Source of the DNA: Paracamarosporium sp. OC-R06-R3
Lineage: Eukaryota > Ascomycota > Dothideomycetes > Pleosporales > Didymosphaeriaceae
Direction: 5' to 3'
DNA length: 64,000 nt
NCBI GenBank assembly: GCA_019828545.1
Contig: JACVRA010000124.1
Span: 124,001 to 188,000, forward strand
Within the stretch, counting starts at the first letter, position 1, and every line of letters starts with the position of its first letter. Both the position numbers and the translations under genes were made by a program. Positions 13,103-25,424 of this stretch are shown piece by piece. The notes below the pieces were generated by a model. It was not told the DNA's origin and searched no databases. It was given only the letters and a program-made list of their open reading frames with translations.

Positions 13103-13176
13103 CTAAGAATTATCCAACCTCCATCGACTGAATAGGACGCTAAGAATTATCCAATCTCCATCGACTAAATAGGACG
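13103..13176 (+). repeat. 37-bp tandem duplication in the 5' leader
   Basis: Two adjacent units, 13103-13139 and 13140-13176, both starting ctaagaattatccaa and ending aataggacg, with two substitutions between them. The ending word taggacgtttgaa is shared with the leaders of the paralogues at 20054 and 24999. Confidence 0.85.
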
Positions 13177-13201
13177 TTTGAACAAGTTACGACACATCAC
13201 T

Positions 13202-13594
13202 ATGGGTGACAATGATGGTTGGAGCCTTAGAATAACCTTCTGTTGTCGCGTAGCCTTTGAGACTTGCATTGAGAAGCTAGACGGCGAGCACAAAGACTAC
13301 ATTAAGGTCCAATTTGCAGAATGGCAGCGCTGGGTTGATAGTATAGGCGTTCAGGATGGGTTGCCAGACTGGCTATTTGCTCAATTTCGTCGTAATGAGA
13401 CTATATGCACCGGCTTAGTATACTTGCTAGACGACACTGTAGAAGTCTATCAGAAGTTAGTTCTCGGACATGGCAGGCAAGACCAGATCAGAAACGCCAA
13501 AGAGAACATTGAGATATATCTAAAGCAACTAGAAGAGTTTCGCTCTCGGATGCAGCCTGACTTGGATTTTCGGAGGGCTATGCTATCTAAGTAA
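13202..13594 (+). CDS. Short stand-alone protein, N-terminal-domain paralogue of the C2H2/TPR protein at 20054
   Basis: Single exon, 130 aa. The ATG at 13202 sits where the paralogues start, after a cacatca-type leader; the frame extends upstream without another ATG. It aligns with the N-terminal domain of the 932-aa protein at 20054: a Cys at CIEKL, LDGEHKDYI, a W-x2-W-x-D element (QRWVDSIGV), PDWLFAQF, and VYQKLV, followed by a charged helix. It ends where the domain ends and has no zinc finger or TPR. Predicted all-helical, no signal peptide, no membrane segment. This is the most diverged copy. Function unknown; the domain in large fungal proteins is N-terminal to C2H2 and repeat modules. 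Confidence 0.75.
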   Translation: MGDNDGWSLRITFCCRVAFETCIEKLDGEHKDYIKVQFAEWQRWVDSIGVQDGLPDWLFAQFRRNETICTGLVYLLDDTVEVYQKLVLGHGRQDQIRNAKENIEIYLKQLEEFRSRMQPDLDFRRAMLSK

Positions 13595-14196
13595 GCCACC
13601 CTTGTTCTATTTACCTCAGCTTGCTTCCGGAAAGCTTCCGGAAAGCTTCTAGTTAGTCTCTACCATAGAAAGAAATAGACTTTCTAGTCTACTTTAAATA
13701 AGTTGCAGTGTGGCTTGTTGTGAGAACATGTAATTTGCCTTATAAAGTCTGAATTCACTAAAATCGAAAAAATAAAGGATTTTGATCATGTCGTAGACAC
13801 GAACACGTGATCACATTGCTGCGACCGAATTGCTATGATCACATGATTTCTTCCTTTGTACCTAATACAGTTTCAGATCCTGATCGCTTATTCAATAGGC
13901 CAAGCTCATCTGATCTCTCTTATGTAGTAATAAATTAATTATTGCTCGCTGGGCCGAGCTTTCCAATCGTAGTTGATCATGCAGCGCCGCCGTGCCAAGG
14001 ATTGGAAGGTCCTTGCGCTTACGCTATGCACGATACCCCGCTTGCAGGATTCGTGGGGCAGCCGGAAACGGACAAGTGTGCCTATGAATAGTTGTTTATC
14101 ATTATCCCCAACACTGGTTCTTGACTAGGCTTTGACCTATTAAAATTGAGCTAAACTAGGGACGTCTTTGTCAAGTATAAGGGATGCATCACTAGT

Positions 14197-14217
14197 ACGC
14201 TGAGTTGGTCTATATAA
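14197..14217 (+). promoter_or_regulatory. Conserved core promoter block with TATA box
   Basis: tacgctgagttgg then tctatataa, TATA at 14211-14217, 87 bp before the ATG at 14304. Nearly identical to the block at 13039-13060. Confidence 0.6.
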
Positions 14218-14303
14218 TCAGAGCTCCAGTGCGCTCAATCAATGTTCTATACACACCCGCTGAAAATCTTTCAACCCCCACCAACAAGTTACAACACAGC
14301 GCC

Positions 14304-14765
14304 ATGGAGCCAACGCAACAGGAAAACACCGAGCAAACGATTAGTCGCCCAGCTCGCAGGGCGGTCGCTAAGTGTTGCCAAACCTTCTCTACATGTTCTG
14401 CCAGGCTACCAAAGGGCGGCGAGCACAAAGAATTCATTGAGCGGCAGTTTACACAACTGGATTGGTGGGTCGAAATGATGCGCGTTTTTCAAGACGAAGA
14501 AGAAGAAAAGTCGCTGGACTGGCTAATTAGCCAAAGAGAAGGTTCCCTGACTGTCTTCAATAACTTGATAACCCCACTAAAGAAGTCTGTGGAGGACTAC
14601 AAGAAAGCGGTTGTTGAACAGGGCACCCAAGAGGAGATTGACAAGTGTGAAGAGGACATTTTTGTATTTGTAGCGAAACTGTATCTGTTTAGCACTTGGT
14701 TAAAGGGTGGGGAACGCGCTGACCGGGTTGAGCCAAACTTGCCTGTTGCTGCATCCAGTAGTTAA
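14304..14765 (+). CDS. Short stand-alone protein, N-terminal-domain paralogue
   Basis: Single exon, 153 aa, starting MEPTQQENTEQ, almost the same first residues as the 932-aa protein at 20054 (MEPTQQDRADD). The body aligns along the whole domain: GGEHKEFIERQF, a tryptophan pair (LDWWVEMM), KSLDWLISQ, SVEDYKKAV, and an acidic segment before the last helix. An Arg-rich stretch (RPARRAV) precedes the Cys-Cys of the first helix. A 25-residue tail unlike the paralogues ends the protein. No zinc finger, no TPR, no secretion signal. The ATG at 14304 is chosen because it matches the paralogue start; the open frame runs further upstream with no other ATG. Function unknown. Confidence 0.8.
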   Translation: MEPTQQENTEQTISRPARRAVAKCCQTFSTCSARLPKGGEHKEFIERQFTQLDWWVEMMRVFQDEEEEKSLDWLISQREGSLTVFNNLITPLKKSVEDYKKAVVEQGTQEEIDKCEEDIFVFVAKLYLFSTWLKGGERADRVEPNLPVAASSS

Positions 14766-15377: not shown

Positions 15378-16211
15378 CTAATATCTAATGCATACGTCAT
15401 CATCTCCAATGGGGATATCCTTGTAATCGTTCTCTTCTTCCAGGTCTCCATCCAGCTCTTCCTTAGTGCCCTCTACCAAATCAAGTGGCTCGTCATCGTC
15501 CACCCTACCAGACCCCGTCATGAACGCCGCCCTGTGCTCCAACAGGTCCACGTCCACGCCGGCCCGCTTATGTCGGATGACATGCACCTGGTACGCATAT
15601 ACAATACCCGGTGCCGTCTCATACGAGTCCGTCACCTTAGGCTCCCCATGATGTGCCACGCTCGCCCCCAGCTCCAAGGGCACCAGCCCTGGTATCGGCG
15701 GTCCGGACGCGGACAGCTCTACCGTATGGTCCTTGCTTGCCCCCTTCGTGACTGTGAATGACGTCTTCGCGATCCTAACCCCCGAGACTATGTACACGGC
15801 GCGCTTGCCAAACAAGCCACTAGCCATGCGCTGCTGCACGACTGGCAGTGCCGCAATCTTCTGGGCCGTCTCTATCGTCAGCGACTTGGCGAAGGAGCGG
15901 ATCTCATGGTCGACGGGGCCGTAATTGACAGATGCGCTGCTGCCAACGTCGATATTGGCCGAAGCAGAGGCGAAGGTAACGAAGTGCGTGAAAATGCTGA
16001 AGGCGTTGGACTGAGCATCCGATCTGTTGTGGGCGTGGTTGGGCTCGGTAAGGATGACCGTTTCTGGAAGCGTTATGCCAGAGTCTGGTAGGCCAAGGGA
16101 GATGATGAGCTTTGCGGGATGTTTAGGGTGGGCGATGACGTCGCCGAGCTCGAGCTTGCCGGGGGTGAAGGTGAAGTCTGGGGGAAGGAACCAGGTAGAC
16201 ATTTTGGGCAT
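15378..16211 (-). CDS. Gasdermin-like protein (HET-Q1/RCD-1 type), candidate pore former
   Basis: Single exon, 277 aa from the ATG at 16211; a second in-frame ATG follows at 16202. It starts MPKMSTWFLPPDFTF and has alternating beta-type segments (LELGDVIAHPKHP, YIVSGVRIAKTSFTV). A basic stretch (HVIRHKR) precedes a 60-residue, strongly acidic C-terminal tail. Two points suggest a fungal gasdermin: the length, close to the 278 aa of Podospora HET-Q1, and the neighbour, a subtilisin-type protease on the same strand 600 bp upstream. In fungi, gasdermin genes are commonly paired with S8 or CHAT protease genes, and the protease removes a short C-terminal tail to release the pore-forming part. The tail could play that inhibitory role. 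No signal peptide. The family call rests on pattern and context, not a profile search. Confidence 0.62.
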   Translation of the reverse strand: MPKMSTWFLPPDFTFTPGKLELGDVIAHPKHPAKLIISLGLPDSGITLPETVILTEPNHAHNRSDAQSNAFSIFTHFVTFASASANIDVGSSASVNYGPVDHEIRSFAKSLTIETAQKIAALPVVQQRMASGLFGKRAVYIVSGVRIAKTSFTVTKGASKDHTVELSASGPPIPGLVPLELGASVAHHGEPKVTDSYETAPGIVYAYQVHVIRHKRAGVDVDLLEHRAAFMTGSGRVDDDEPLDLVEGTKEELDGDLEEENDYKDIPIGDDDVCIRY

Positions 16212-16802
16212 TTTGGAAGTTGTGAAGTTCTTGGAGCCGTAAAGATTCAATAGCTCACGTTGATGGTGTGCATACAGGTTGAGGAGTGAGAGTAAGAGTG
16301 TGAGTGGGAATATTGGAGGTAAGCTTGTGTTTGTCAATTTCCGGCTTGCTCAACTTAGTCATGCAATATATGTGTGCTACCTAGACGCGAAGCACGTGCA
16401 GTGGTTGCCTAGTGCACAGCATATGCGCTTCATATACAAGACCGAGCACGAGCAAATTGCAACAATAGAGCATGCGTATCGCCCGTGCGAGGAATTGCCA
16501 GAGACGTAGGTATTATAGGCGTATGCAAGCCTGAGTAGGTGCCTGAGCGCTGTGAATGAGTAGTCGGAAAAACGAGCTCCATCGTCGGTCAATTATTATT
16601 ATACTCGTACATGTATAGTTCGCACACCCTTACAACAAATATCTTGTACCATTATCTCTCCGACTTCCAAATTTCGATAGACTTGGGTCTATCTATCTCA
16701 TTTCTCCTTATGTGGTAACGATTGACACATCGCACGGAACATGCGCATGTAAACAGGCTGGACCGGCTGGTCTGACTGATTCGGCTGACGCAGTTGGCCC
16801 TT

Positions 16803-19704
16803 CTAGAACAGAATTGGATTGATGAAATACTGCTTTTTATCACCCCACGATTTCGCCATGCCAAGAAGCATATCTCGCATGCCGTCAGTCGTATTCAGGT
16901 CTGAATATAAGACCTCGGCATTGCACCCTTGCATCTTATGTGGTACTATTGCCGCGTACGCCAGCGTCACAGCCACGACACCTGCCGCCACCGCTGTCGC
17001 AATCGACGTCCCGGCACTAAACTCCCCTTGTGCAAACCGAGCGCGCAGCTCCCTCAGGACAGTGTCTGGGATGTTATCGCCGTACGTGCCCAGCCAGAAC
17101 TGCGAATCCTTGGGCGGGAATGGATTGGTTTTGAGAAAAGTACCAGTGCTATCGGTAGCGTACATGGAGATGACAGAGGGGTTGCGGGCTGGATAGGCCA
17201 CGGAGCGATTGACATCGTTGCCCGGGCTTGCGAGGAAAATAATGGCGTCTCCGCGGGACCTTTTCACATCGTAGATGGCATCCCCAATGGGCTGGCTGGA
17301 GTGGGGGAAGCCGAAGGACATGGAGATGACGTCGACTTCCCACTCCTTGGCAGCATATCTTATAGCCTGTAGATACTGCTTAGCAAATCAAAGAGTGTAT
17401 GGGTCGGAGGAAGGTGACCCACCTTTGCCACGTTTTCTTCCTTGCCATCCAATTGCTTCCTCTTCTGCGCAATACGCGCAATGTAGATCTCACAGCCCAG
17501 CGCCACCTGCATCACAAGCCGCGCCATGAACGTGCCATGCCCATCTTCATCAACCTCAGTCTCAGACGGCGGTTCCACCGCAAAGTCGGACCACCCCTTG
17601 AAGCACTTCTTGTGGAAAGATCCCAAGGTCGAGTCACGACCTGTGTCGAGAATAGCGATCCGTACAGGGCGCAGTTTGATTCTTGGTTCGCGTGGTCCGC
17701 TTTCTAACTTACGTCTCTGATCGAATACATACGTAGAGATTTGCTGGATTTCCTCGAACCAGTCTTCAGTACTTTTCTTTGCTCCCTGATCGCTATTGAA
17801 ACTTGGGTTCTGTAAGCGTATCCTGAGCTCCTGGATCTCAGCTTCGCCCGGGTCGTCTAGGAAAGTAGACTGGCCATGCGCCTTGGTGTGTTGCTGCCTG
17901 CGGGGTTTTAAGGATATTACATGTTCTCTGTCGATTTTGATGGCAGCAGCAAGCCAGTCGAGCCGCGACACAACGTTGCGGTAGATGGCCTCTCGGCGGT
18001 ACTTCAAGGCGCGGTTCTGGTTCTTTTCTGAAGTAACTCGGCTTCTTATTTTGTGGGTGCTGCGGCTTTCGATAAATTTGCTGGGGTCTAGGCACTCTGA
18101 AATCGCATCTTCGAACATTTTCTTGTACTTGAATCTTTGCCAGACTTCTTTTTTGAGCACTTCTAGTCGACCGTTCGCATATGAGTGTGCTTGGTTTACA
18201 CTATTACGCAGTTCCTCAACGTTTCCATTAGCAGTTAGTGATGGAAATCCCAGCCTCTCGCCGCACCCAATCTCAAGCAGGATAATACCCAAAGACAAAA
18301 TTCGCGGATAATCGTGCGTCAAGTTATCCAGATCCAGAAATTCATCCGGTCCCGGCGGGTTTTGCCCAAATGGGCAGCTCACAAACGCCTTGAGCTCCAA
18401 ATTCTCGCTGCTCGTCTGGTATTTCTTCCGCCATGGCAAGAACCATATGTCCTCACTACACCACCGCGTTGTTGTCAGCTCGCTCCCGTAGAACTCCCAG
18501 AAGCTGCGCGCGACGGCAAACGATAGCATAATCTTGGCTTTTGGTGTGAGATCGTACTGACCGTGGTCGAGGAGTTCGGCGAGCGAGAGGCTCTCGCGGT
18601 GTGACTCCGGGTACGGGAGCGCCCGCGGTCTCCGGTTCTTGTGCAAATGGCAGTTGTGGTCCAGCTTGAGAACGTACTCTACACTAGATTGCGCGTTGCG
18701 TTCGCGCTCAAGGATGCTGCAGACATCGCCGGCTTTCATAACGGTGGATTGGTAGTATGTGTCGTTCGGTGGTCCGACTGGAGTCATGGCACCAGATGGC
18801 TTCTTGAGCTGTTCGTTAGGGTTTCTTAGGGGTCAATCAGCTCGAATCACACAGTTTGACTGGATATGCTACGGATAGACTCACGGTGCAACATCCAGCG
18901 AGAAGTCCTGCCAGAACCTAGAATCCATAGAAGCCATGGTCAGATTGAACGTGACAAGCTGTTGTACTTTTCGTCCCTCGGTGCTGAGACATAATCTGGT
19001 GGGATGGTGACCATCCATGCCCACTGTGACTTCTGACTTATGCGCCGAGGGTTCACACACCGCATGCTTCTCCAGTGCCGTTATCAAATTCCCGAGGACG
19101 TCTTCCGGGTAGACATCATCGTCGCGCGGCTTGAGATTTCCAATGTCCAGGCTGCTCTGGCTTACGTTGTTGAGCTTTCGATTTTGTGCCCCTACCAGGT
19201 CGAGCAGCTCCCGAAAGCGGTTGCAATAGAATCTCACGGCGGTCTCCGCGGTCATAAAACTCCTGATGCTTGCGTGCATCTCTTTCAGTCGCGACGAGTA
19301 TAGTGTTTGTAGTTCGTGGCAGACGCTGCTCGAGCTCGGAGGCGACCGCCGCTTATCTTCATAGGGCGACTTTGCTGGCCACTACAGGCTTGACAATTAG
19401 CAAATTGCTATGTAACAGGCTGATTGGGAAAGCTCTTCACCTTGCAGATTGTCAGAGAATCCAGCAGAGCTCGGCGCGAGAGTTCCTGGACCTTGGGAGG
19501 GATGTAGGATAGCTGCATATCCTTCAAGGACCCTATAATGCAGTATAGCGCAGAGCCGATCTGCGAGACTAGCTCCTGGAGTGACCTCGATGACCGCCTA
19601 TTGTTGATGGCGCAGTATACAATCTCGTCGGCCGCCAGTAGACCGAACTGGACCAACAGATCCGAGTTGGATGCCTCGTCGGATGCCTCGTCGGACGAAG
19701 CCAT
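16803..19704 (-). CDS. Subtilisin-like serine protease (S8) with N-terminal helical and DUF7580-type regions; candidate gasdermin activator
   Basis: Minus-strand exons 19704-19441, 19381-18885, 18824-17423, 17366-16803; 908 aa. Introns of 56-60 nt splice in frame. Residues 1-250 are helical (MASSDEASDEAS start). About 320-520 resembles the kinase-like DUF7580 domain of fungal proteins (SLAELLDHGQYDLTPKAKI, WCSEDIWFLPW, PRILSLGIILLEIGCGERLG). A charged linker follows, then the S8 domain with intact triad: Asp647 (RIAILDTG), His683 (DEDGHGTFMA), Ser842 (AGTSIATAVAAG), and oxyanion Asn771 (ASPGND). No signal peptide, so probably cytosolic, unlike secreted subtilisins. The architecture and the neighbouring gasdermin-like gene parallel the HET-Q2/HET-Q1 pair, where the protease cleaves the gasdermin and triggers cell death. 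That role here is inferred. Confidence 0.85.
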
Positions 19705-20053
19705 GGTAAACTGAGTACTTCTCTGCCAGACCGGGCGATACCCGTCTAGATGGTCGTAAATTTGGAAAAGAGGAGGTTTCGGCAGTAGTAAGCTAAGTTG
19801 TTTCGTGTGTTTGGGCTTGCAATGAGGGGCTTGATTGAAGGCAGCTGCCATGGTGCCCGATCAGGCAAGTCGCTAAGCCTATCCAGGATGGCCGACCTGC
19901 CTTGTCCCTCCATCACTCTTACAATCAACAACCAACTTGTTTACCTACTGTATGAGCTATTTTGTACACTACTACTTCTGAAGCCTCCCGCACGCCACCG
20001 TCAAAAATCATACCAGCCGAGTAGGACGCTTAGAGAAATCACAACACATCGTC

Positions 20054-22899
20054 ATGGAGCCGACGCAGCAAGACAGGGCCGATGATGCGACCCGCGCGTG
20101 TTTTGCACGCTTTCGTTCGTGTATTGCTGCGCTAGATGTCGAGTACAAAGACCACGTCGAGGACTGGTTTACGGACCTAAAGCTGTGGGCCCACAGTGTG
20201 GGCGCCCTGGCTCAGGGAAAGGCGTCGCTGGACTGGCGACACAGTACAGACCCACGGCGTGTATTCGTCATCGCCGGCCTGCTGAACATGTTAGAGCGGT
20301 TTCTAGAGAGCTATAAGACGGCGGCCAAGCATGGAGACCAAGACGAGGCTGAAGAGGCCGAAAAGAGTATTGATGGGATGATAGACCAACTGGTGTGGAT
20401 TGGCTCTGTGATTTCACGGTCCGGAACGAGATCGCGACTGCAAACGGCCGACATGTTCTACGAGCGCGATAGAGCTGGGGAAGACAAGCTACAGTGTGAC
20501 CAGTTGCGAGCACATCTTATCTTCATCATCAACTCCAGAAAAACTGAACGCACCAGGTCTGAAGACGACATGAAGGATTTTCACAAAACGGAGCTCAACG
20601 AGATACAGAATCGGCTGGTGGAGGCTAATTTACGACGTTGGCACAAATTTCGATATGCCCAACGCCACTCTGACGTCCTCAGAGCCTCTCAAGCTGCTCA
20701 AAACATGCCAATGCATTTCATTCCAGAAGGCACGGAAGGCAGTGCATCTAGTTCCGCAGCAGAGCCGATGAATGTCCCCGCACCGCGAACTAATACTGCC
20801 GCCGTAAAGCAAAGAAACGAAGCTAACAATGATGACGAGACACGCACTACCGTTGGATTGTCACCCGCGGCGTCTGGGAGTGATGATGAAAGACTAGAGG
20901 GCCAACATACTCGACCGGCGAAGTCCACGATCTCGCCGGTCAACACACTCGCCGGGCCTGCTCGCATTGCAGAACCAAAGAAATCACAGACGCAACAAAA
21001 GACAGTGCTGTGCCCTTGTTGCTGCCAGGCCTTACCAGTAGAAGAAGCTGAGGATCCATACTCATGGGCGTAAGTATCCTACCCCTTCAAATCACTCGCT
21101 TTACTCACCCATGCAGGAAACACATGAAGAATGATATCAGACCATATACCTGCATCGTAGAAGACTGCCCTACACCGTATTGTCTCTACCTTACACGAGA
21201 CGAATGGAGAAACCACGTTCTATCCGACCACCGGCCAAAGTGGAGATGCTCCTGTTGCTCAGGAGTCCGTCCTATATTTCGATCTCTGCCGTCATTCATG
21301 GCTCACCTTGACCTAAATCATGAAAGCGAGGTCTCTGGTCCAAATTTTGAACGCATAGTGGCCAGTTCAAAATTTCATGACTTTGGCATAACCAACTGCC
21401 CTCTGTGCAACGAACACGGTCGCAAAGACTCTCTCGAGCTCATTGGGCACGTCCTTGGACACATCTACGAGTTTTCCATGTATGCTCTGCCCTGGCGAAC
21501 AACACCCCAGACAGTCCTAAAGAAACCAAACCGCACCTTCAATGACGTCGCTCCAGTACTTGATCCAGATGACAATGCAGCCGCCACTGAGATGCGGATG
21601 TTCAACCACATTAGGGTTCTAGAATGGGTCGAAGAACCTCATCCAAATGAGTACGACTTTACTCCCGAACAAAAGGCAACGATCCGTGCCCTTAATTGGG
21701 ACAATTACCAGGCCATGGATGATGAAAACAAAGGGGACCCCATCGTGGACGATCATTTCAGCCGCGCTGACATCGATTATTTCGAAGACTATTCTAGCAC
21801 GAGGCCGTTATCGATCTCCTCTAGTAGTGCGTATTCGAGTCATACCCAGGATGATCTTCAAGAAATGTACTTCGCTCTTGCCGGGACGACTATCTTCGAC
21901 GACAACGACGATGACGACGACGACGAGAACTTTCCTAACGAGGAGGATACCGAGGCAATGTACAAACAGGCGTTGCAAAGCTTTGAAGAGTTAGATGGAC
22001 CAGAGCACACATCGACACTCGATGCGGTCAATAACCTAGGCAAGCTCTACGCCGATCAAGGCAAGCTAAAGGAGGCGGAAGCCATGTACATTCGGGCGGT
22101 GGACAGCTACAATGACGTACTAGGACTTATGAATTCTGAAGCGTTGCCCACTATGAAAAATCCAGCGTCGACATACAACAGTCGAAGGAGCCGGGTTTAC
22201 CGTGCCATCGGGCTGTTTCAAGAACTGCTTGGCGAGGAAGATTCGATCATACTCCACAAGCTAGACTATCTTGCTTGGTATTATAAAGAAGAAGGGGAGC
22301 TATTCAAGGCAGTAAGGCTATTTGAGGAAGGAGTAGTACGGAGCAAGAAGACGTTTGGCGAGGACCATCTCGAGACGATCCATATGCTAAACGGCCTTGC
22401 TCGTACGCTCGGAGACCAAGGGGAGCTAGATAAAGCAGTAAAGATATTCGAGAAAATATTAGAACTGACAAAGAAGGCGCCGAGTGAGAGGTTCAAATAC
22501 ACATTCTCAGGGCTACACGACGTTGCTCGGACGCTCAGAGACCAAGGGAAGCTGGATAAGGCAGTAAAGATACTTGAGGATATACTGGAACTAACAAAAA
22601 GGACGCTGAATGAGAGAGATCCATACACAATCTCAGCGCTAATCGACCTTGTTCAGGTGCTCAAGGACCAAGGGGAGCTGGATAAGGCAGTCCAGAAATC
22701 CGAGGAAATCCGAGGATTGATAAAGAAGATTTTGGGCGAAGAGAGTCCGTACGCGATCTCGGAGCTGGAAAAGCTCGATGACATCCTTCATGGCTACAAG
22801 GGTGAGCGGAGGTGGGTGAGCGTAGTTAGGGAGCCAGACGAGGCAGCAAAGGTAGAGGAAGTGATAGAGAAGCCAAGGCCCTGTCTAGTAAAATCATGA
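20054..22899 (+). CDS. Receptor-like protein: helical N-domain, AcuF-type C2H2 fingers, TPR repeats
   Basis: Exons 20054-21069 and 21117-22899 (47-nt intron); 932 aa. Residues 14-125 form the helical domain shared with the short paralogues (RSCIAALDVEYKDHV, KASLDWRH, ESYKTA). About 126-315 is a charged, Ser/Ala-rich linker. About 318-470 is Cys/His-rich (CPCCCQ, YTCIVEDC, WRCSCC, NCPLCN, with paired His), resembling the AcuF-type C2H2 region of fungal multidomain proteins. An Asp-rich stretch lies near residue 600. About 618-880 contains tetratricopeptide repeats of the kinesin-light-chain type (repeated LGKLYADQGKLKEAEAMY and LRDQGKLDKAVKI patterns). No nucleotide-binding domain is seen, so it is not a full NLR. 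Such proteins are thought to act in signalling or recognition; no function is proven. It is adjacent to and divergent from the protease gene, start codons 349 bp apart. Confidence 0.82.
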
Positions 22900-24998
22900 T
22901 CCGCCATGTCTAAATCTGATCTCTTCTGAATGAGAGTTTCGGCGGACTCCATCAAGGTCTTGTTCGTTACAATTGTATTTTTGATGTCGTTGAGTGAAGT
23001 CCTAATTGGTCCTATATTCCGTTAGCATAAACAATAATCTCTCTTATTACGGCGGTTGTTCCGTTACGCGCATACACGCATCAGCAATCTGTGAAGCATT
23101 TTCCAGTATAATGTACATAGTGTAATGAGCCCCATAGGAGGGGGTGTCTTGCGACTACAAGCTCGCTTACTTTGAGCTAGTAGATCTCAGCATTTAGCTA
23201 TTAGCTGCAAGTAGTAAGGAGCGTCCTAGGGTCTCTACCAAAGGTCGCTTGCGCAAAGGGTGAGGCCAACGTTGCTAAATACTGTAATCAGCGCCCCTCT
23301 CTGCTTCCCTCCATATTCCCTCGTCCCGCACGAAGGACAAAGATAGCCAACCCCGCAACCACGCCCGCGCGCATGCATTTGCATCTCATAGGCATGCATG
23401 ATACCATAGACTTTTATTGATACCGTATGAGCCAAACACCAATCACTGACCGTCCATCGTCCCGATGACCCACTTTTACGCTCTTTCCTGTTTCCCGATT
23501 AGCTCTCAGCACTCCCTGCTCATACGGTATCAGCAAACGTCTACGGTATATTTTTGTGGGTTCGTGGCGTGCGGGGTCGCGGACGGTCTGGACTGCGGGG
23601 TTCTAGGCTCGGCTCAGCCTTGTGGATAGGATAGTAGTGTTGATGGGAAAATAAGAATTACGATACTGGTTGTGTGCGGGGTTAAATATTTGAAATTCGC
23701 TTTGTACGGGTATGCCATGGGATGCTTTTCAGTGGAAGTACAGATATTGGGTGCGAAGCATAGTTAGAAAACCCGATCGAAATTGAAGGCGAGGCATTTG
23801 CTTGGAGACGAGCGGAAAAACTGCAGACAATGCTGGAATATTCTGCGATAGGTTGCCATCTAGCTCGCCTGTGCAGATCATATGGACCAGGATGGACATG
23901 TAGTGGTGTATTAGATGTTGATGAAGTAGCTATGGGGATGAATCAATCTACTTGCTTAGGGTAGTTTGCTGTGTCTCCGGTCTTCTATATTTATGACCTA
24001 TAATTAATGTAGCATGTTTGAGAGTACCGCAAATCATTATATGGTGTATTCCTGATGTGCAGACAAGAACCAAGCTCGACACATAGTGATACATATACAA
24101 TATAAAGTATATGACCCTCGCATTGAAAAAAAAGCTCGACACAAATGGTAGGCTGACCTAGTTAGTCATTGATCTTGAATCTTTGCGCATCATTAGCTTT
24201 TGCTGATTTATACGATTACTCTTCCTCGAATATTAATTGGTAGTTCCATCGACTGGGATTGCCAAAGTATCGTGAGGGCCAACATCGTTGCGCTTACATG
24301 GTTGAAGTGGTACCGATGAATCGTCTGCTGCTTGGATGCAGGATATATCTTCGTGAGCATGGTGCGTCGGACACTACTTATGAAGCTCATATTTGAAAAT
24401 AGGGATGAGCTGCAACGCCTTTGTTTGGAACTAGGTAGTATACAATCTCGCTAACAGATAACTGGAAATCTGCATGACGACGGACGTCTCGACTCAATAT
24501 ATTAGAGGAAGTGGCTGTTGCTAATACTATAACCTTCTTAAGGGTCATCCTTCACTTGCCTGGTATCAGTGCTATGATATGGTAAGAGAGTAACTACGAG
24601 ACGACGTACAGCGTTACAAGCTCTTTAAGTCACTTGAGGCTTTTCAACAAGAACGTGGCTTAGCACACCGTATTTAGCTACTCGTTCAACAACGGACAGC
24701 GTGGTCTTTACCGGTCCGTTTGCTAAAGAACCTTGTGTCAAAATAGAACTAGAAAGACACTTAATCCCTTGCCAGCGGTCCGTTGTAGGCGCGAACAATG
24801 TAATACCTTTGTAACCCCATACTCCCTTCTTCAATTACAATAAACCTAAATATAGAGGTGGTTTTAGTAATAGTAAACTGAATTCTTCTACATAAGTAGG
24901 GCTTCAGCGTTTGTAATAATCTCAGATCCTACACACACCCGTTGACAACAACCTCCACTAGCATAGTAGGACATTTGAAGAAATCACAACACATTACG
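22900..24998. other. Gene-free interval
   Basis: 2.1 kb with only short interrupted frames. No recognisable gene, tRNA or repeat family. The last 40 bases (taggacatttgaagaaatca, then caacacatt) are the leader shared with the other paralogues and belong to the gene at 24999. Confidence 0.5.
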
Positions 24999-25424
24999 AT
25001 GGACCCGAAGCAACAGGAAAAGACCGAGTCAATTGATGAAGCGGCCGGAAATGTGATGAAGCCGACACGACAAGACAAGGCCAGTGATGGGATGCGCGCG
25101 TGTTTGAAGCGTTTTGAGTCGTGTATTGCCGCTCTAAACGGCGAGCATAAAGAACACCTTGAGAACCAGCGTTCAAGATTTGCCACATGGGCCGAAAGTG
25201 TGGACGTAATCCTGATCGGAGAAACGTCTTTTTTGGACTGGCTGCTCGACCTACACATTAATGCTCATTTAATGATTACTTCCCAGTTTCTCATAATGGA
25301 GAGGCTTGTGGAGGGTTACAAGAAGGCGGTCGTAGAGCACAACCAAGACGAGATCGAAGATTGCAAAGAGTGTATTGATGAGATGATAAACCAAGTAATG
25401 TGGTTAGTCCATAGCTCAGCTTAA
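24999..25424 (+). CDS. Short stand-alone protein, N-terminal-domain paralogue with doubled leader
   Basis: Single exon, 141 aa. Closest of the three short proteins to the N-domain of the protein at 20054: RACLKRFESCIAALNGEHKE against RACFARFRSCIAALDVEYKD, then FLDWLLDL and VEGYKKAV, CIDEMINQVMWL against SIDGMIDQLVWI. It stops just after this point, where the large protein continues into its linker. The N terminus has two successive leader-like segments, MDPKQQEKTE and, 20 residues later, MKPTRQDKAS. This looks like an internal duplication of the paralogue start. No signal peptide, zinc finger or TPR. Function unknown. Confidence 0.8.
   Translation: MDPKQQEKTESIDEAAGNVMKPTRQDKASDGMRACLKRFESCIAALNGEHKEHLENQRSRFATWAESVDVILIGETSFLDWLLDLHINAHLMITSQFLIMERLVEGYKKAVVEHNQDEIEDCKECIDEMINQVMWLVHSSA

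Follow-up and report, generated by a model that had tools for sequence, protein, structure and literature searches.

Analysed here is a window of 64,000 nucleotides (nt) from the ascomycete Paracamarosporium sp. OC-R06-R3, namely positions 124001-188000 of contig JACVRA010000124.1 (C21 in the numbering used below) in a 43.1-Mb assembly of 337 contigs. On its minus strand lie, in tandem, a gene for a 908-amino-acid (aa) protease of the subtilase (S8) type carrying a DUF7580 domain and, 591 nt downstream as measured from stop to ATG, a gene for a small gasdermin-like protein (Table 1). A first-pass annotation, made from the sequence alone, had placed the two about 600 bp apart on the same strand and read them as a gasdermin-protease cell-death module; the spacing agrees with the measured one, and the pairing has been found to recur both in other fungi and elsewhere in the same genome. 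The two genes very probably form a fungal two-gene cluster of the pyroptosis type, in which a gasdermin locked by its tail would be cut by a DUF7580-subtilase sensor-protease, with pore formation and cell death as the outcome. Intron-bearing genes, together with closest relatives found among ascomycetes, fit a filamentous ascomycete as the host.

Table 1. Features of the locus, in window coordinates (ORF, open reading frame; TPR, tetratricopeptide repeat; pLDDT, predicted local distance difference test).
Feature	Position	Strand	Basis
Gasdermin-like protein of 277 aa, or of 274 aa if ATG 16202 is the start	15378..16211	-	ORF, fold and profile matches, homologue starts
Acidic tail at the C-terminus (residues 231-277), which the protease is predicted to cleave off	15381..15521	-	charge, Phe230 conservation, low-pLDDT linker
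Phe230, proposed cut site	15522-15524	-	inference
Terminal motif I-G-D-D-D-V-C-I-R-Y, residues 268-277, with Cys274	15381..15410	-	conservation counts
Protease exon 1, N-terminal helical part	19441..19704	-	gene model
Protease exon 2, N-terminal helical part	18885..19381	-	gene model
Protease exon 3, DUF7580 and Asp/His part of S8 domain	17423..18824	-	gene model, Pfam, triad
Protease exon 4, C-terminal part of S8 domain, Ser842 at 17004-17006	16803..17366	-	gene model, Pfam, triad
DUF7580 (PF24476), read as degenerate kinase-related domain	17957..18730	-	Pfam E 2.7e-21
Candidate third gene: probably helical first part, weak C2H2-type zinc fingers, TPR repeats	20054..22899	+	two ORFs, assumed intron; Pfam TPR, weak C2H2

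Gene models and domains of the two proteins

The small protein is encoded by a single intronless ORF (16211 to 15378). Most aligned homologues begin at its second methionine, at ATG 16202, which makes a length of 274 aa as likely as 277 aa. Its N-terminus reaches a largest 19-residue hydrophobicity mean of 0.54 (windows starting at residues 1-22). The first-pass annotation had staked its gasdermin-like reading of the 277-aa protein on a profile search and a fold comparison, and both, run as a refutation check, place gasdermins first. The predicted structure has a gasdermin N-domain fold with long paired strands, and homology to RCD-1 and HET-Q1 is found at the profile level. The family of the small protein counts 198 relatives at E <= 0.001, and its profile was matched by profile-profile comparison to a second gasdermin family at E 7.3e-24, which itself matches RCD-1 at 3.5e-36 and HET-Q1 at 1.7e-9 in the profile search, and the merged profile matches both the HET-Q1 structure 9uv9 (E 7.5e-10) and the bacterial gasdermin 7n51 (E 5.5e-6). 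Predicted fold and homology thus support the identification of the small protein as a gasdermin. A Pfam scan of 60 of its relatives gave scattered weak matches (best E 0.026), which were taken as chance.

The 908-aa protease, with the intact S8 triad including Ser842 that had been proposed for it, was reproduced exactly by reading from ATG 19704 to the stop at 16803 after three introns, 59, 60 and 56 nt long, had been removed; the second intron requires an AAG acceptor, and the other two end in TAG and CAG. An in-frame ATG at 19851 would lengthen the protein to 957 aa. The extension between 19704 and 19851 (minus strand) resembles the N-terminus of the relative P0121 (WQRS..TMASS), and the true start may lie further upstream, at this extension. 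The triad consists of Asp647, His683 and Ser842, and in each of these columns 53 of the 54 aligned protease relatives are identical, the remaining one having a gap (in three different rows). The absence of a signal peptide, also proposed earlier, agrees with the hydrophobicity windows, the measure used here: no stretch near the N-terminus is strongly hydrophobic, the highest 19-residue mean being 1.45 (windows from residues 1-22).

Upstream of the subtilase part lies DUF7580. A profile built from seven DUF7580 pieces of this genome matches kinases (B-Raf at E 3.5e-7), and one of these pieces matches Pkinase at 2.4e-5, below the Pfam cut-off; a profile of the nine protease-linked copies alone gave no kinase match. 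In the alignment derived from the kinase-matching profile, the residue opposite the HRD aspartate is Arg or Lys in 48 of the 54 protease relatives and is followed by Trp in all 54. DUF7580 is tentatively read, from sequence comparison, as a degenerate kinase-like domain, the kinase link holding at the family level only. For a HeLo or related helical domain at the protease N-terminus, Pfam gave no match among the 54 relatives except NNH2 in two (best E 0.0012). A fold search with a protease relative was filled by subtilases, and the N-terminal and DUF7580 parts were barely covered.

Pairing of the two genes in this genome and in other fungi

According to the available parts of the reviews cited here and below, the known gasdermins of fungi number about 1,900, of which about 80% are clustered with a protease gene and about 63% with an S8 gene; clusters of two and of three genes occur, and the Q2L proteases comprise 18 architectures of multidomain sensors, a part of which carry a fused kinase-like domain (PMC10197012, PMC12881547). 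Like the Q2L proteases, the protease of the window combines an S8 domain and triad with a gasdermin gene within 10 kb, here at 591 nt, and the cell-death role ascribed to the pair follows from published studies of HET-Q1/HET-Q2 and of the Q2L proteases, as reviewed.

Within the genome, 20 loci around S8 or DUF7580 genes were surveyed together with a locus on C49. Gasdermin-like ORFs adjoin S8 genes on C49, C81, C104, C209 and C229, giving six pairs with that of the window. A whole-genome search with the C81 gasdermin-like protein recovers the same five, plus a doubtful fragment on C330 (E 0.007, one stop), and misses the gene of the window. No gasdermin was found in 11 of the 16 examined 10-kb loci around S8 matches, nor in the eight shorter stretches that surround the strongest S8 matches. 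Where DUF7580 and S8 occur together (C21, C104 and C229), a gasdermin neighbour is present in all three cases; five of the 11 DUF7580 places lacking S8 were examined and contained no gasdermin, with one chance-level match at E 0.92. The C49 protease (L011:2501-5838, plus strand), which gave no DUF7580 match, carries several repeats of basic character, each about 50 residues long, ahead of its protease domain.

In other fungi, 58 NCBI-named proteins among the 120 gasdermin relatives listed were compared with the 120 protease relatives listed, and at least 22 of them have a protease partner from the same organism whose contig has the identical length, and which is inferred to lie on the same contig. 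Gene numbers are consecutive in 11 of these 22 pairs, as ten locus-tag pairs (e.g., QQS21_009054/009053, PV07_09761/09762, BHQ10_000690/000691, N7494_009401/009402 and TWF696_001014/001013) and one protein-number pair. Furthermore, the two families diverge in parallel: in a mirror-tree test of 23 pairs (21 named, one unnamed and that of the window), the distance matrices correlate with r = 0.943, a value reached by none of 9,999 shuffles (largest 0.343). One of the 22, Xylogone, was dropped from this test because its 8-Mb contig bears two candidate proteases.

The acidic tail and the proposed mechanism

The first-pass annotation had described a 60-residue acidic tail; its acidity stands, and its length is revised to the 47 residues that follow Phe230 (residues 231-277; 5.3 kDa, isoelectric point 4.05). 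From residue 226 onward, the net charge lies between -9 and -17 in all 60 aligned sequences, over a length of 51-61 residues. Mean consensus identity in the tail is 0.54-0.57 by segment, close to the 0.56-0.68 of the core, and Phe230 (98%), Asp256 (98%) and Glu259 (93%) are conserved among the aligned relatives. In the predicted model, the linker at residues 228-242 has a pLDDT under 50, and Phe230 lies near its start. Such a conserved acidic tail is predicted to be inhibitory.

The commonest C-terminal ending among relatives is I-G-[DE]-[DE]-[DE]-x-C-I-x-[LF], and Cys274 is the single cysteine of the small protein. Cysteines were counted over the 116 relatives with a length of 255 aa or more (four shorter ones of the 120 listed, of 198 in all, were dropped), which are related sequences and not independent events. 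A cysteine lies within the last 15 residues in 100 of the 116, against about 2% expected, and cysteine frequency in the remainder of these proteins is 0.12%; in 69 of them the C-terminal cysteine is the only one of the whole protein. Among the 16 without it, 15 have Tyr, Phe, Leu or Trp in its place (judged by eye) and one ends earlier. Such hydrophobic residues in its place are more in keeping with a plug than with obligatory lipidation. In the second gasdermin family, 12 of 18 members show a cysteine within their last 20 residues, where 10% would be expected.

Taken together with the pairing, these features suggest a mechanism in which the short acidic tail would keep the gasdermin inactive, while the large protein would act as a cytosolic sensor-protease whose N-terminal helical region and DUF7580 restrain the subtilase. 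Upon a trigger, the subtilase would cut the gasdermin, most likely directly after Phe230 by analogy with Phe238 of HET-Q1, releasing the tail; the freed gasdermin domain would then insert into the plasma membrane, form an oligomeric beta-barrel pore there and kill the cell or hyphal compartment, possibly in the recognition of non-self or pathogens. A mapping of HET-Q1 Phe238 onto Phe230 failed, the alignment with 9uv9 stopping short.

The pair fits the known fungal gasdermin-protease kind in every testable feature. HET-Q1/HET-Q2 of Podospora anserina likewise combine a 278-aa gasdermin bearing a short C-terminal tail with an S8 partner. HET-Q1 loses about 5 kDa, or 40 residues, after Phe238, whereas 47 would be lost here; HET-Q2 has 388 aa and is idiomorphic with het-Q1, whereas the 908-aa DUF7580 protease adjoins its gasdermin (PMC12881547, PMC10989679). 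RCD-1 of Neurospora crassa has the common fold and, by profile, the same family; its killing needs two antagonistic allelic variants to be co-expressed, a feature of RCD-1 (PMC10197012). Bacterial gasdermins are also alike in having a short C-terminal peptide, which is inhibitory there, and a linked protease; their lock is a palmitoylated N-terminal Cys3 contacting a Phe of the C-terminal peptide, whereas here the sole cysteine lies near the C-terminus (PMC9079055, PMC10989679). Some fungal gasdermins keep the N-terminal cysteine (PMC9079055).

Several results weigh against the two-gene death cluster. Single-sequence searches placed the small protein in no Pfam family and on no PDB chain, so that it is recognised as a gasdermin solely through profiles and fold; its own-family profile matches RCD-1 weakly (E 0.0029) and HET-Q1 not at all. 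The predicted model is of middling confidence (predicted template modelling score 0.60), and its root-mean-square deviation from pore structures is large. In addition, for 36 of the 58 named relatives the matches listed include no partner on the same contig, the mirror-tree correlation would follow equally from plain joint inheritance, and the other five pairs of the genome are convergent whereas that of the window is tandem.

Among the alternatives, an allorecognition (het) locus like HET-Q1/HET-Q2, polymorphic or idiomorphic between strains and killing fusion cells, is an improbable reading of the pair. Fungal allorecognition systems do include HET-Q1/HET-Q2 and RCD-1 (PMC12881547, PMC10197012, PMC10989679); however, het-Q1 and het-Q2 are different genes at one locus (PMC12881547), whereas both genes are co-located and intact-looking here, and allorecognition is regarded as a secondary use of such pairs (PMC12881547, PMC10197012). 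Cleavage of the gasdermin by another protease, the linked DUF7580-S8 protein having different substrates, is very unlikely: the genome offers five further S8 genes linked to gasdermins, and 33 S8 matches in all, yet recurrent linkage, parallel divergence of the two families and the gasdermin neighbour at every DUF7580-S8 gene argue for the linked enzyme. Equally remote is a small protein that retains the gasdermin fold and forms no pores, as a regulator or decoy, since, despite a divergent family with a direct RCD-1 match at E 0.003, its core segments keep 56-68% mean consensus identity, the tail and Phe230 are kept, and long paired strands are predicted.

A candidate third gene and possible transfer of the pair

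The candidate third gene and the protease gene are oriented divergently, with 349 nt between their ATGs. Related zinc-finger genes adjoin DUF7580 genes on C229, C104, C60, C172 and C46, so that the family occurs in six of eight examined DUF7580 loci including that of the window, against none of 14 10-kb loci without DUF7580 (Fisher p 0.0004); excluding the three loci that gave rise to the idea leaves three of five against none of 14 (p 0.01). The gene of the window is tied to this family through the C60 gene alone (E 5e-4), and the family matches on C46 and C172 are weak (E 0.0016 and 1.6e-4). Coordinates suggest C234 as a further case of zinc-finger and DUF7580 neighbours; a further zinc-finger relative lies on C67, where no DUF7580 match is listed. 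The family members (that of the window, L012, L013, L027, L028 and L029) are mostly divergent from the DUF7580 gene, and on C104 the zinc-finger gene is divergent from the gasdermin gene instead. The first part of the 20054 gene recurs three more times, in copies or in fragments, at 13169-13591, 14196-14762 and 24900-25421 (plus strand), so that it has expanded locally within 12 kb.

Between the protease of a Chaetothyriales strain and those of Trichoderma chlorosporum and Diaporthe, identity is 83% and 80%, respectively, against 38% between the Cladophialophora and Trichoderma proteases. Across different orders, apparently classes, of ascomycetes, the near protease clade (P0121-P0127, P0005-P0014) is 77-92% identical, against 37-39% identity with a more distant member. 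In two quick trees, of 25 and 26 rows hand-chosen from the listed relatives and labelled by class, the class labels are scattered; equally low values arose in 30 of 200 and 14 of 200 shuffles. Transfer of the pair as a unit between fungal classes is only a lead, contamination and deep paralogy being alternatives. A Starship-type mobile element near the window was considered and rejected, as the four matches to DUF3435, a domain of the Starship captain type, lie on other contigs (C318, C241 and C265) and contain stops.

A wider, doubtful proposal is a three-gene module, in which a helical zinc-finger(-TPR) protein, encoded divergently, would serve as sensor or licenser for the DUF7580 pseudokinase-subtilase, and the latter would unlock a gasdermin tail-latched by the C-terminal motif with its sole cysteine (or a bulky hydrophobic residue), a mirror of the bacterial N-terminal palmitoyl-cysteine lock, the pair perhaps having moved between fungal classes as a unit. 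In their available parts, the reviews of fungal gasdermins name neither DUF7580, nor the tail motif, nor the zinc-finger gene; in the papers searched, DUF7580 does not occur, and the openings and passages covered describe no fungal gasdermin with palmitoylation or cysteine, or with a zinc finger and a pseudokinase.

Altogether, three things make the locus interesting above all: its tail motif, its DUF7580 sensor and a possible third gene. How fungal gasdermins are inhibited is called an open question (PMC10989679), and the triggers of such sensors are called unknown (PMC12881547), in the sections available. The pair belongs to a widespread and recognisable family within the fungal gasdermin-protease kind, in which a sequence-conserved tail makes gasdermin inhibition testable through point changes, and the zinc-finger neighbour, if a true partner, would offer a handle on the triggers of the sensor-proteases.
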